The notes below the pieces were generated by a model, which saw nothing but the letters and a program-made list of their open reading frames with translations, had not been told where the DNA came from and did no database searches. The translations under genes and the position numbers were made by a program. DNA of 41,160 nucleotides, from contig OMXQ01000011.1 of assembly GCA_900315065.1 (NCBI GenBank), positions 1-41,160 on the forward strand, given 5' to 3'. This DNA is from an uncultured Erysipelotrichaceae bacterium (lineage in GTDB: Bacteria > Bacillota_I > Bacilli_A > Erysipelotrichales > Erysipelotrichaceae). Positions 35,076 through 38,486 of this stretch are shown here, one piece after another (the first letter of the stretch is position 1; every line of letters starts with the position of its first letter).

Positions 35076-35807
35076 TTACCAGTTTCCGTTGTCACCGTAG
35101 TATTCAAGCCGGCTTCTGGCATCTTCATATGCATGATAGATATTGTCCAGATCATTGTCGTCTGCCGCAAAGGCGTCCCCCAGCAGTTCATAGTGACCAT
35201 CCTGGATCAATATGCCGCCGTTTTTCGGACACCCGAAGACAGCTTTGCCTTCTTCCTGCAGAGAACGGATGATTTTCTGCAGGTGGTAAGCATCTTCTTC
35301 ATAACCGGCATCCAGCATGAAGCCTCTGAGATACCCGATGCCCGGTTTCTTTTCCCTGTCCCATTCTTCATCCGGCAGGAATTCATCCATCATCACAGTA
35401 GAACCAGCCGCATTGCCGATTACGATGCCGTCATATTCCAGCAGGGTTTTCTGCAGACCATAGTCTTCAATGACTTCCATCATGGTGACCGGATTATTGC
35501 CGATGAGATAAAGAATATCCGTATTGGCAATCTTTGTTTTCAGAGATTGCGCATCTTCCTGATTGAGATTGAGGAAGTGAAGATGATCGTCTTTGAACAG
35601 GTAGTTGCGGAAAGGAGCCGCAATTTTTTCATATGCTCTGGAGCCTTTTCTGTATCGATGTTCAAAGTTTTCGAGATCTTCGCTCCATTCTTCATTGAAG
35701 AACAAAGGAAAAACAAGCACCTGCTTGTCAGGCGTCAATATATTGCGCAGGGATTCATAGGCCCATTCTGCGTCAAAGTTGTTTTCATGAAATATCAGAT
35801 TGATCAT
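35076..35807 (-). CDS. Peptidase S51 / type-1 glutamine-amidotransferase-like protein lacking the nucleophile Ser
   Basis: Cytoplasmic protein of 243 residues from the ATG at 35807. The fold is that of peptidase E (S51): LVFPLFFNEEW near 31-41, DILYLIGNNPVTMMEVIEDYGL (97-118), YDGIVIGNAAGSTVMMDEF (125-143), and a long helical tail. The nucleophile elbow normally reads G-x-S-A-G; here it is GNAAG (131-135), with Ala133 where Ser is expected. Either it is not a peptidase or it uses another residue. A TATAAT ends only 7 nt before the ATG and no ribosome site is seen, so the message may be leaderless; the in-frame extension upstream crosses the divergent acylphosphatase gene and is unlikely. Function unknown. 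Confidence 0.72.
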   Translation of the reverse strand: MINLIFHENNFDAEWAYESLRNILTPDKQVLVFPLFFNEEWSEDLENFEHRYRKGSRAYEKIAAPFRNYLFKDDHLHFLNLNQEDAQSLKTKIANTDILYLIGNNPVTMMEVIEDYGLQKTLLEYDGIVIGNAAGSTVMMDEFLPDEEWDREKKPGIGYLRGFMLDAGYEEDAYHLQKIIRSLQEEGKAVFGCPKNGGILIQDGHYELLGDAFAADDNDLDNIYHAYEDARSRLEYYGDNGNW

Positions 35808-35891
35808 ACCGGCTATTATAGTCCTTTTCTTCTGGATTGTTGATTTGTATTTTCTCGGGAAAATGCAATAATAAGAACAGAGGTAAAAAAT

Positions 35892-36167
35892 ATGAAACGA
35901 TATCACGTAATTGTGGACGGCAGAGTCCAGGGGGTCGGCATGCGTTCCTTCTGCATGCTGCAGGCTCAGCAAAGAGGACTGACCGGAAACGTCAAAAATC
36001 TTGACAACGGCATGGTCGAAATCTACGTCCAGGGCGAAGAAACAAAGATTGATGATTTTCTGGCGGCAATCCAGGAAGGAAATCGTTTCATCATGGTAAC
36101 GGATATTTCCGTCAAGGAAGTTCCCGTAGAACCGAATGAAAAGAGATTCAGCTACAGCTGGTACTGA
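35892..36167 (+). CDS. acyP: Acylphosphatase
   Basis: Small (91 aa) alpha/beta enzyme hydrolysing acyl phosphates. The phosphate-binding loop GRVQGVGMRSF carries the catalytic Arg (about residue 18), and the catalytic Asn is in GNVKNLDNG; Met replaces the usual Phe of GVGFR. The tail KRFSYSWY is a little shorter than usual but complete. GAGGT is 9 nt before the ATG. It is divergent from the S51-like gene with an 84-bp shared upstream region, and its last codons form the left arm of a terminator. Confidence 0.9.
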   Translation: MKRYHVIVDGRVQGVGMRSFCMLQAQQRGLTGNVKNLDNGMVEIYVQGEETKIDDFLAAIQEGNRFIMVTDISVKEVPVEPNEKRFSYSWY

Positions 36168-36187: not shown

Positions 36188-36916
36188 TTATTTCTGCCGA
36201 TAGGAATACATGACAATGCCGCCGGCAACAGCAACATTAAGAGACTCAAAACCATGCATGTCAATGCGGAGTCTGTCATCTGCACATGCCTGCAGGTTTT
36301 TGTGAACACCCTGGCCTTCGTTGCCGAAGATAAAAGCCATCTTTTCTTCGGCAGGAATTTCATCGATCGTATGGGATTTTTCCAGGGAAGTCGCAATAAC
36401 CTTGAAACCATCCTTCTGCAGATTCTTCACAAGATCATTTAAATTGCAGCGGATAACAGGAATATGGAACAAAGCTCCCTGGGTGGATCGAACTGCCTTG
36501 TCATTATACAGATCACAGGTATCTTCTGAACAATACACGGCATCAAAGGAGAAGCTGATTGCAGTTCTGATCAATGTACCGAGATTGCCCGGATCCTGCA
36601 CCCCGTCGAGAAGGATAACCCGGTTCAGCTTCGCCGGTAACAGATCAGGTTTTCTGCAGACGGCAATCAGATGTACTTCCGAAACATTTTCTGAAATCTT
36701 CTTCATGATTGCCGGCGTTACATAAAAGACTTTCGGAAACGGAAGTTTTCTTTCTTCATCCGTAATGACTTCCTGGATGCAGCCGGCTGCCATAGCTTCC
36801 TGTGCCAGGTGTTCGCCTTCAATCAGGAAGAGACCGGTATTGTCTCTTTCTTTTTTCTTATGCAGAGCACACCATTTCTTGACGCGGCTGTTCTGCAGTG
36901 AGGTAATCTGTTCCAT
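36188..36916 (-). CDS. SpoU/TrmH-family RNA 2'-O-methyltransferase
   Basis: SAM-dependent methyltransferase with a trefoil-knot fold, 242 residues from the ATG at 36916. The N-terminal substrate-binding domain (about 1-90, SLQNSRVKKWCALHKKKER) precedes the SPOUT domain. Motif 1 is DPGNLGTLIRTA, motif 2 IFGNEGQGV and motif 3 SLNVAVAGGIVMYSYR, all present. The target (23S rRNA or tRNA ribose) cannot be read. The ATG overlaps the preceding stop (TAATG) with GGGTGA ahead; a GTG four codons upstream is a weaker alternative. Last gene of the sseB-like operon. Confidence 0.88.
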   Translation of the reverse strand: MEQITSLQNSRVKKWCALHKKKERDNTGLFLIEGEHLAQEAMAAGCIQEVITDEERKLPFPKVFYVTPAIMKKISENVSEVHLIAVCRKPDLLPAKLNRVILLDGVQDPGNLGTLIRTAISFSFDAVYCSEDTCDLYNDKAVRSTQGALFHIPVIRCNLNDLVKNLQKDGFKVIATSLEKSHTIDEIPAEEKMAFIFGNEGQGVHKNLQACADDRLRIDMHGFESLNVAVAGGIVMYSYRQK

Positions 36917-37680
36917 TATTTCACCCACAGTATTCTTGTGTCGTAGTATTGTTCTTCAAAACCGATCAGATCAATAATCTTCTGATAATCAACATTCTGC
37001 CCCAGAGGTGTCACAATCCAGCGGGATGTACCGTCTTCCTTGTGATAGACAATGCCGCTGACAACGCCTTTGAAAGTTTCCACCGGCTCGAGCGGCCCGA
37101 TCACCCAGGCATTCTGAAACTCCCCGTCAAGAGAAATCGGATCGGATACATACCCGTAATTAACAGGATAGAGAACATCCGGAAGATGAGGATGGAAGGA
37201 ACCATACGGATGATCAACCGTTACGGTAACCACTTTGCCAAGTGACTTTCTGCCGATCAGATATTCCATCGGTACCAGTTTCAAAGTACCGGCATCCTTT
37301 TCTTCCCCTTCCTGATCAAAGCCGTATTTCTGATAGAAAGTAACCAGCTGGGGATCTGCATCCGCATAGATAACAGGAAGGTGTTCTGTTTCTGCATATT
37401 GCATGAGGAAATCCAGCAGCTCCGTACCGGTCTGCCCTCTTCTTCTGTCTTTGATAACATAAAGAAGAACAATCTTACGGACAGCTTCTTCAAAAACAAG
37501 GATGCCTTCATAGCTGCCATAAGCCAGCCACTTATATTTTTCTGCGTGGTTTTTCAGATAGGTGACAATCTGTTCTCTTGCGCCGGCTTGCCAGGAAGTA
37601 TCTTCATCCTGCTTCAGCTGTGTTTCCAAAGCCTCTGCAGCTTCCCCGATTTCCTTATCACTTAAGAATCTGACTTCCAT
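36916..37680 (-). CDS. GNAT acetyltransferase fused to an inorganic-pyrophosphatase-like domain
   Basis: Two-domain protein of 254 residues. Residues 1-138 are a GNAT fold with the acetyl-CoA loop KDRRRGQTGTELLDFLM (78-93) and YADADPQLVTFYQKYGF (105-121). Residues 148-252 resemble small Bacillota proteins annotated as inorganic pyrophosphatase (VDHPYGSFHPHLPDVLYPVNYGYV, then VETFKGVVSGIVYHKED). The metal-binding D-G-D-P-x-D of true pyrophosphatases is DGEFQN (185-190) here, losing two of three Asp, so pyrophosphatase activity is doubtful. The ATG overlaps the SseB-like stop (TGATG) with CTGGAG ahead. Start at TTG one codon earlier is possible. Substrates unknown. Confidence 0.78.
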   Translation of the reverse strand: MEVRFLSDKEIGEAAEALETQLKQDEDTSWQAGAREQIVTYLKNHAEKYKWLAYGSYEGILVFEEAVRKIVLLYVIKDRRRGQTGTELLDFLMQYAETEHLPVIYADADPQLVTFYQKYGFDQEGEEKDAGTLKLVPMEYLIGRKSLGKVVTVTVDHPYGSFHPHLPDVLYPVNYGYVSDPISLDGEFQNAWVIGPLEPVETFKGVVSGIVYHKEDGTSRWIVTPLGQNVDYQKIIDLIGFEEQYYDTRILWVK

Positions 37681-38486
37681 CAAAGCTCCAGAATATCATC
37701 ATAGAGGGCAACGCTGTCCTTGATGATCTTGTTTTGGATTTCATCATTAAGGAAGACGACTTCTACTTCAACGCCTTTGCTTAACGGAACAGCAACTTCA
37801 CGGATAGCATTGAGGACGGATTCTTCCTGCTTCGTGGAATCTACAACCACAAAGAAATGCATGTCTCTGCCGATGAATTTACCCTTGAGCCAGACGTGCC
37901 TGATTTCTTCCATCTGTTCAGCCCGATCATAAATAGCATTGACCATTCTGGTCGGATAAACAGCCGGTTCTCCATAGGTAATGTTCAGCGGTGCCGGAGC
38001 AGGATTGACTTTCTTACCTGCAGTCTGAATCGGGCGGCCGGCAATGACACCGACTAACTGGGCAGGAATAACGATATTATCAGAACCAGGGTTTACAACA
38101 AGACCCACTGCCTTGGAATCCGGCATTGTTAATAAAGGATCGAATTCCTTTACCTGACGGACAACATACTTGGGATCGATCTTGTCGCCGAGATTGATCT
38201 TCCGGGTTCTTGGAATATCGGTAAAGACAGGGAAAAGAGTTTTGCCGTCATTGGTATTGAGCAGATAGAACTTGATCTGGTTCGGATGAACATTTTTGAT
38301 TTCCCCGTTCTTGTCAGGCTTGACATTGACGTCAAAGTCGCATGGTGAAAGCAGACGGGCACTCTTCAGTGCATTCAGCAGAGCCTGCTGCTTTTCAGGT
38401 GTACTGCCGGACTTCAATGCCTGAATAGCGGCATCCAGTTCCGGATTATGAATTGGTTTCATGTTTACATTTTTATTTTCAGCCAT
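37680..38486 (-). CDS. SseB-like protein
   Basis: Cytoplasmic protein of 268 residues with two parts: an N-terminal SseB-type domain (about 10-130, FYLLNTNDGKTLFPVFTDIPRTRKI, then MPDSKAVGLVVNPGSDNIVI) and a C-terminal SseB domain (about 165-265, YGEPAVYPTRMVNAI, HFFVVVDSTKQEESVLNAIREVAVPL). The family is named for enhanced serine sensitivity in Escherichia coli and has also been linked to type III/VI/VII-associated proteins; its biochemical role is unclear. GAGGA precedes the ATG. First gene of the operon with the GNAT fusion and the methyltransferase, under a good promoter. Confidence 0.82.
   Translation of the reverse strand: MAENKNVNMKPIHNPELDAAIQALKSGSTPEKQQALLNALKSARLLSPCDFDVNVKPDKNGEIKNVHPNQIKFYLLNTNDGKTLFPVFTDIPRTRKINLGDKIDPKYVVRQVKEFDPLLTMPDSKAVGLVVNPGSDNIVIPAQLVGVIAGRPIQTAGKKVNPAPAPLNITYGEPAVYPTRMVNAIYDRAEQMEEIRHVWLKGKFIGRDMHFFVVVDSTKQEESVLNAIREVAVPLSKGVEVEVVFLNDEIQNKIIKDSVALYDDILEL

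Follow-up and report, generated by a model that had tools for sequence, protein, structure and literature searches.

In an uncultured bacterium of the Erysipelotrichaceae, a GNAT acetyltransferase is fused to a degenerate domain related to family I pyrophosphatases (PPases), and the gene for this protein, here called GNAT-PPL (PPL for PPase-like domain), is real, specific to one lineage and under selection in the pairs that were tested. It lies in positions 1-41,160 of contig OMXQ01000011.1, a stretch referred to below as the window. The preliminary description of this DNA had proposed such a fusion, and it is borne out by a match to PF13673, by a family I PPase fold recovered at Z of about 10 and by the loss of active-site positions. 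GNAT-PPL adds to the known type of GNATs that carry an extra domain, the unusual part being that this extra domain is PPase-derived; a literature search in which most subscription papers were out of reach found neither a GNAT-pyrophosphatase fusion nor its pairing with SseB. In this protein an enzyme fold has perhaps been turned into a kept, non-catalytic domain, and the case is a tractable one in that it combines relatives with intact sites, a single fusion event, a loss of sites that is graded across one clade, and a neighbour gene that stays the same. The features concerned are these:

36188-36916, minus strand: SpoU-family RNA methyltransferase (PF00588, E 1.8e-38), adjoining GNAT-PPL only in the window genome
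36916-37680, minus strand: GNAT-PPL fusion gene, 254 residues (open reading frame list, sequence)
36919-37242, minus strand: PPL domain, residues 147-254, a truncated family I PPase OB fold about 40 residues short (homology, AlphaFold2 model, structure search)
37096-37131, minus strand: motif L-D-G-E-F-Q-N-A-W-V-I-G, residues 184-195, with D185, E187 and N190 (alignment with E. coli PPase)
37255-37680, minus strand: GNAT domain, residues 1-142 (PF13673)
37680-38486, minus strand: SseB-type protein, 268 residues, the conserved partner gene (PF07179, PF14581)

The two domains of the fusion

The match to PF13673 covers residues 52-142 (E 3.7e-11; score 43.5 bits, cut-off 23.6). The whole protein was modelled at pLDDT 88.8 and pTM 0.82, and Foldseek gave matches to GNATs (best E 3.3e-7). 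The consensus of the GNAT acetyl-CoA loop is given as R/Q-x-x-G-x-G/A (PMC8556138). The corresponding region of the window protein (about residues 77-90) reads DRRRGQTGTELL and departs from this consensus, its RRRGQTG missing it by one residue of register. Among 51 fused members the consensus is present in 30 and missed in 21, and 10 of these 21 loops are interrupted by a deletion (counted by eye).

The affinities of the second half are less evident from profiles. The window protein has no match to PF00719, the family I PPase model, at E<=1, residues 147-254 alone match no Pfam model, and a PF00719 search of the window's own genome returned nothing. The homologues of the domain are proteins of about 110 residues, found in the same order and beyond, and a scan of 11 of them gave a PF00719 match at E<=1 every time, the best at 4e-11. 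When the domain was modelled alone with AlphaFold2 (pLDDT 93.2), all 50 structural matches listed for it were family I PPases, with Z scores of 9.2-10.3 and 105-108 of 111 residues aligned, and the top alignment (Z 10.3, rmsd 2.6, 105 residues) places the model in the PPase OB fold. The earlier claim that the second domain keeps the PPase-like strands stands on these scores. In most of the matched chains the 105-108 aligned residues span about 145, so that about 40 are missing from PPL. PPL thus shares with family I PPases the OB fold and the YPxNYGY and LDG motifs, and differs from them in length (about 108 residues against about 170).

At the sequence level the best PPase match by phmmer is 1mjy, the D70N mutant of E. 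coli PPase, at an E value of only 0.072. It pairs D-G-E-F-Q-N of the window with D65-G-D67-P-V-(D70N), and through this alignment D185, E187 and N190, in the window numbering used throughout for the sites, correspond to E. coli D65, D67 and D70. In another alignment D216 corresponds to D97 or E98, depending on where a gap is placed, and residue 218 to D102. A profile search found a match to DHHA2, the family II PPase domain, in all 35 of 35 genomes, the window's own included, and since that genome has no PF00719 match, bulk removal of pyrophosphate need not rely on PPL.

A single origin

GNAT-PPL is present in 31 of the 36 genomes of a Solobacterium-like genus, counting the window's own. It is missing from three that are 69-74% complete (G009, G010, G028) and from G015 and G033, which are 97% and 95% complete. 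The relatives searched are Solobacterium and other Erysipelotrichaceae, mostly metagenome assemblies from animal guts. In a tree of 114 PPL domains, a quick one built on 122 columns and with many open forks, all 54 fused rows fall on one side of a branch with SH-aLRT support of 100. The fusion arose once in its lineage.

Loss of active-site residues

The catalytic acidic sites and lysine of E. coli PPase are D65, D67, D70, D97, D102 and K104. The window has D185, E187, N190, D216, T218 and R220 at these positions, that is, Asn for D70, Glu for D67 and Arg for K104, and does not retain the full catalytic set of a family I PPase. Its unusual residues are Asn190, His213, Thr218 and Arg220. The preliminary description had singled out DGEFQN in place of D-G-D-P-x-D; Asn190 is indeed out of the ordinary, but a DGE with Glu is what the subfamily normally has (54 of 60 PPLs outside the clade), and to that extent the degeneration of the motif was overstated.

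Site retention was counted over a five-site set (D185, D190, D216, an acidic residue at 218, and K220) in 54 fused proteins and 60 other PPLs. The former comprise a core set of 51 (50 named loci and the window, L045 and L025 being one gene) and the added loci L049, L162 and L164; fused proteins from a later fetch are excluded. The latter leave out L150 (a truncated match), L071 and L073, whose frames are broken by stops, and second entries for a place already counted; they include close relatives and 11 other fusions. Set A1 comprises 26 of 31 fused proteins and set A2 11 of 12 stand-alone ones. The five-site set is complete in 13 of the 54 fused PPLs against 57 of the 60 others, which differ in this from the window, where two of the five sites are kept. 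Six fused proteins are gapped at site 216 and their register there is uncertain, hence a lenient recount that allowed Asp/Glu and Lys/Arg exchanges and shifts of one residue at 215/216 and 218/219; it was passed by the same number of fused proteins, 13 of 54, and by all 60 of the others. When only the three acidic sites are considered and Glu is allowed, 34 of 54 fused PPLs keep them against 60 of 60 others. This milder result means that much of the loss sits at 218 and 220 or is a change from Asp to Glu, and most changes at site 185 in the fused set are indeed to Glu. The window fails all three tests, strict, lenient and three-acidic-site. Taken singly, D185 is kept in 29 of 54 fused proteins, D190 in 43 (with Asn in 6), D216 in 31 and K220 in 16, and at least seven changes on the tree are needed to account for the strict three-Asp state.

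Other positions are strongly conserved in the fused set: H163 and G160 in all 54 proteins, N174 in 53. Gln244 is found in 52 of 54 fused proteins against 19 of 60 others, and Trp252 and Tyr159, each in 46 of 54, occur in none of the 60.

The states of the two halves were compared in the core set of 51. No significant association was detected between the state of the GNAT loop and that of the PPL acidic sites (17/13/8/13, Fisher p 0.26), and a coupled loss of the two was dropped as a candidate on that result.

Selection on both halves

Sixteen close pairs (dS 0.1-1.0 for both domains, PPL dN <0.3) were available for estimates of omega, which in all 16 lies between 0.03 and 0.48 for the GNAT half and between 0.02 and 0.32 for PPL. 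For 13 of these pairs, the three Asp residues and a complete five-site set are missing from both members, and PPL omega spans the same 0.02-0.32; these 13 are not independent, six of them deriving from the four loci L089, L090, L091 and L098. The strongest cases are L106/L107, with K185 and E190 (PPL omega 0.13), and three pairs within L121-L123, with R185, H216 and V220 (0.06-0.12); these four are the only ones of the 13, among the pairs checked, that also fail the lenient three-site test. Across 1275 pairs PPL is more conserved than GNAT in 1262, with a median identity of 50% against 30%.

That the gene is decaying and on its way out could be suspected from the active-site positions lost in both domains, but these omega values reject decay for the close pairs, among which the window has no near relative, and the fused matches from the 36-genome search of the genus show no internal stops. 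Together with the presence of the fusion in most genomes of the genus, this makes decay a very improbable account of the family. Loss of sites under purifying selection fits a domain that binds without hydrolysing, and the earlier suggestion that the second domain may bind rather than cleave agrees, as far as sequences can tell, with this pattern.

Gene neighbourhood

The ATG of GNAT-PPL at 37680 overlaps the stop codon of the upstream gene by one base (TGATG). The product of that gene matches the N-terminal domain of SseB (PF07179; E 2.3e-16, 60.5 bits, cut-off 21) and the C-terminal one (PF14581; E 3.6e-11, 43.6 bits, cut-off 22.5), and so has both domains of the E. coli SseB family, with E. 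coli serving as control. The coupling to an SseB-like protein, proposed from the window, proved to be general: with neighbour genes placed by tblastn positions, SseB lies directly upstream of the fusion in 50 of 50 named fused loci. In the first genome set it precedes the fusion on the same strand in all 31 fused loci; the two sets overlap, since some genomes are present in both collections. Relative to the SseB stop, the start of GNAT-PPL is offset by -4 to +1 nt in all 50 loci, a figure that carries a bias, as starts were picked as the start codon nearest the SseB stop, with ATG favoured. Two genomes of other genera, G196 and G497, have a divergent SseB before the fusion. In G218 (L049) the fusion stands beside azlC-azlD, with no SseB there and no SseB_C match in the genome. 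Matches to SseB_C are few in the phylum sample (10 of 295), and in the eight loci read for SseB outside the lineage GNAT-PPL was not a neighbour. The function of the SseB family is obscure, and the Salmonella SseB that dominates the literature is a different protein; GNAT-PPL offers this family a testable partner.

In genus g24 (G196 and G218; L164 and L049) azlC- and azlD-like genes follow GNAT-PPL, AzlC being identified by Pfam for L049, and in G196 the GNAT half of the fusion is shortened. With two genomes only, AzlC/AzlD was set aside as a functional link.

The gene on the other side tells a different story. The stop codon of GNAT-PPL and the start codon of the SpoU-type methyltransferase overlap in the window. 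The methyltransferase had been counted as a partner and a common task envisaged, perhaps the modification of RNA or of a small phosphorylated ligand. A match to the methyltransferase is present in all 36 of 36 genomes, the window's own included, but it is found beside GNAT-PPL in the window alone: it was seen near the fusion in 0 of 50 fused loci (277 to about 5,000 nt downstream covered), and GNAT-PPL was seen within 1.5 kb of the methyltransferase in 0 of 29 loci from relatives, this genus contributing 21. Within the same distance of the relatives' methyltransferase stand an acylphosphatase gene in 7 of 29 loci and pheS in 5. The arrangement in the window is thus local, the idea of a partnership falls, and with it goes the evidence for a task in RNA modification; such a module is largely refuted and we regard it as highly improbable.

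In 25 of 50 loci a gene with a VTC domain (polyphosphate polymerase-like), mostly accompanied by DUF4956, lies downstream on the same strand (L078, L080-L082, L084 and L085 are among them). This was considered as a phosphate link and rejected, since HtrA- and rhomboid-type genes recur on the other side and plain synteny is enough to account for it; it remains a lead. A defence role was dropped as well, the PADLOC match of the fusion having an E value of 0.029 and SseB having none. Elsewhere in the window, a Peptidase S51-like gene (35076-35972, minus strand) adjoins an acylphosphatase gene (35892-36167, plus strand); as listed, its open reading frame begins inside the latter, and its true start is probably internal.

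A possible role for the second domain

The explanation that we prefer, and to which we give an even chance on the sequence evidence, is that PPL is a non-hydrolytic binding module within a chromosomal two-gene unit in which SseB comes first and GNAT-PPL second. In most members, the window included, PPL would no longer hydrolyse a phosphoanhydride; it would instead bind either a phosphorylated ligand or another protein, for which SseB is the simplest candidate, and would thereby regulate or anchor the GNAT half.

A regulatory role of this kind is modelled on the bacterial GNATs that have a ligand-binding regulatory domain. For GNATs that carry additional domains, responses to cAMP, amino acids, NADP+ or acetyl-CoA are described (PMC8556138), and the regulatory GNATs of types I-III, among them cAMP-GNAT and ACT-GNAT, resemble the window protein in that a GNAT is joined to a non-GNAT domain (PMC8556138, PMC6434083). 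In type III a small N-terminal domain binds cAMP, amino acids or NADP+. The window protein differs in that its extra domain is C-terminal and PPase-derived, which sets it apart from type III.

Several observations weigh against a non-hydrolytic binding module as a description of the whole family. Thirteen members have all five sites and are perhaps enzymes still, and the 34 that keep the three acidic sites with Glu allowed point the same way; G218 has the fusion without SseB. Moreover, the deletions in 10 acetyl-CoA loops and the departure of 21 of 51 from consensus mean that in part of the family there is perhaps no acetyltransferase left to regulate. One could go further and suppose that in much of the family both halves are non-catalytic, the protein being a structural partner of SseB, an account that would make sense of these same loops, of a five-site set incomplete in 41 of 54 fused PPLs, of the adjacency to SseB in 50 of 50 named loci and of the purifying selection on both domains in close pairs. 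The acetyl-CoA loop is nevertheless kept in 30 of 51 members, and the states of loop and acidic sites are not significantly associated; we consider this double loss rather unlikely.

The domain outside the clade

Outside the clade PPL is found both alone and in many other fusions. Stand-alone proteins of about 110 residues named "inorganic diphosphatase" have the same truncated domain as the window, and this is the public name in 14 of 15 plasmid records among the matches listed (24 matching). The name is an automatic, putative label for a domain found in many fusions, and should be taken with caution. Twenty-one PPLs from outside the clade, some of them in other fusions, share 32-43% identity with that of the window.

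By Pfam, PPL is fused to another GNAT (L043), to GNAT in both domain orders (L236, L238), to GrpB (L061), to an AAC(3)-type acetyltransferase (L075), to peptidase C26 (L137) and, in both orders, to Nudix (L230, L245). Other partners are a DUF3795 protein with a sub-cut-off DUF1284 match (L136), a nucleoside phosphorylase (L205), RhuM (L210), a P-loop protein (L233; AAA_18 below cut-off), an RpiB-type isomerase (L235) and a cyclase (L241). On two plasmids PPL is a separate gene in a row that includes GNAT: GrpB-GNAT-PPL in Priestia (L199, NZ_CP137804.1) and PPL-GNAT-MATE in Phaeobacter (L200, NZ_CP081267.1). A Listeria plasmid region with a PPL gene has no GrpB or GNAT neighbour. Among 20 proteins adjacent to stand-alone PPLs, chosen from 67 listed, no common pathway was apparent: one is a GNAT, two are methyltransferases, DinB, HAD, HIT and histidine phosphatase proteins occur singly along with others, and three are unmatched. 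In a plain tally acetyltransferases recur among the partners of PPL, as do many other families.

This variety bears on the preferred reading in two ways. Fusion to many partners that are not acetyltransferases weakens the case for a role specific to GNAT, and partners that handle nucleotides (Nudix in both orders, GrpB, nucleoside phosphorylase), together with the five sites kept nearly throughout outside the clade, suit a bifunctional enzyme in which PPL is still a phosphohydrolase of altered substrate, the Glu of DGE replacing Asp67 and the window copy being merely weaker. The fused PPLs that retain all five sites (13 of 54) or the three acidic ones (34 of 54) speak for it too. It has more difficulty with the window itself, where N190, T218 and R220 fail both the strict and the lenient tests, and with L121-L123, in which R185, H216 and V220 coexist with low PPL omega; we see it as possible but doubtful. 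To return to the binding module, a broader version of it can be put forward, tentatively: PPL may be a widely reused and undescribed domain for binding phosphate compounds, a sensor or anchor joined many times to enzymes of small molecules and nucleotides, which in Solobacterium would have shed catalysis and would form a mostly non-catalytic sensor complex with GNAT and SseB.

Further candidate fusions were noted by eye only (L220, L222, which has no Pfam match, L232, L237, L239, L240, L246 and L247). In L063, L065, L068, L149 and L151 PPL is preceded by an N-terminal region of about 160 residues; L149, the one scanned, lacks a Pfam match and has a weak PADLOC match to PDC-M42B (E 8e-4). A distant group (G483, G502, G546 and others), of which the sole member read, L249, has a frame of 252 residues without the DGE motif, consists mostly of frames of 127-165 residues that match the PPL profile at about E 1e-11 to 1e-13.
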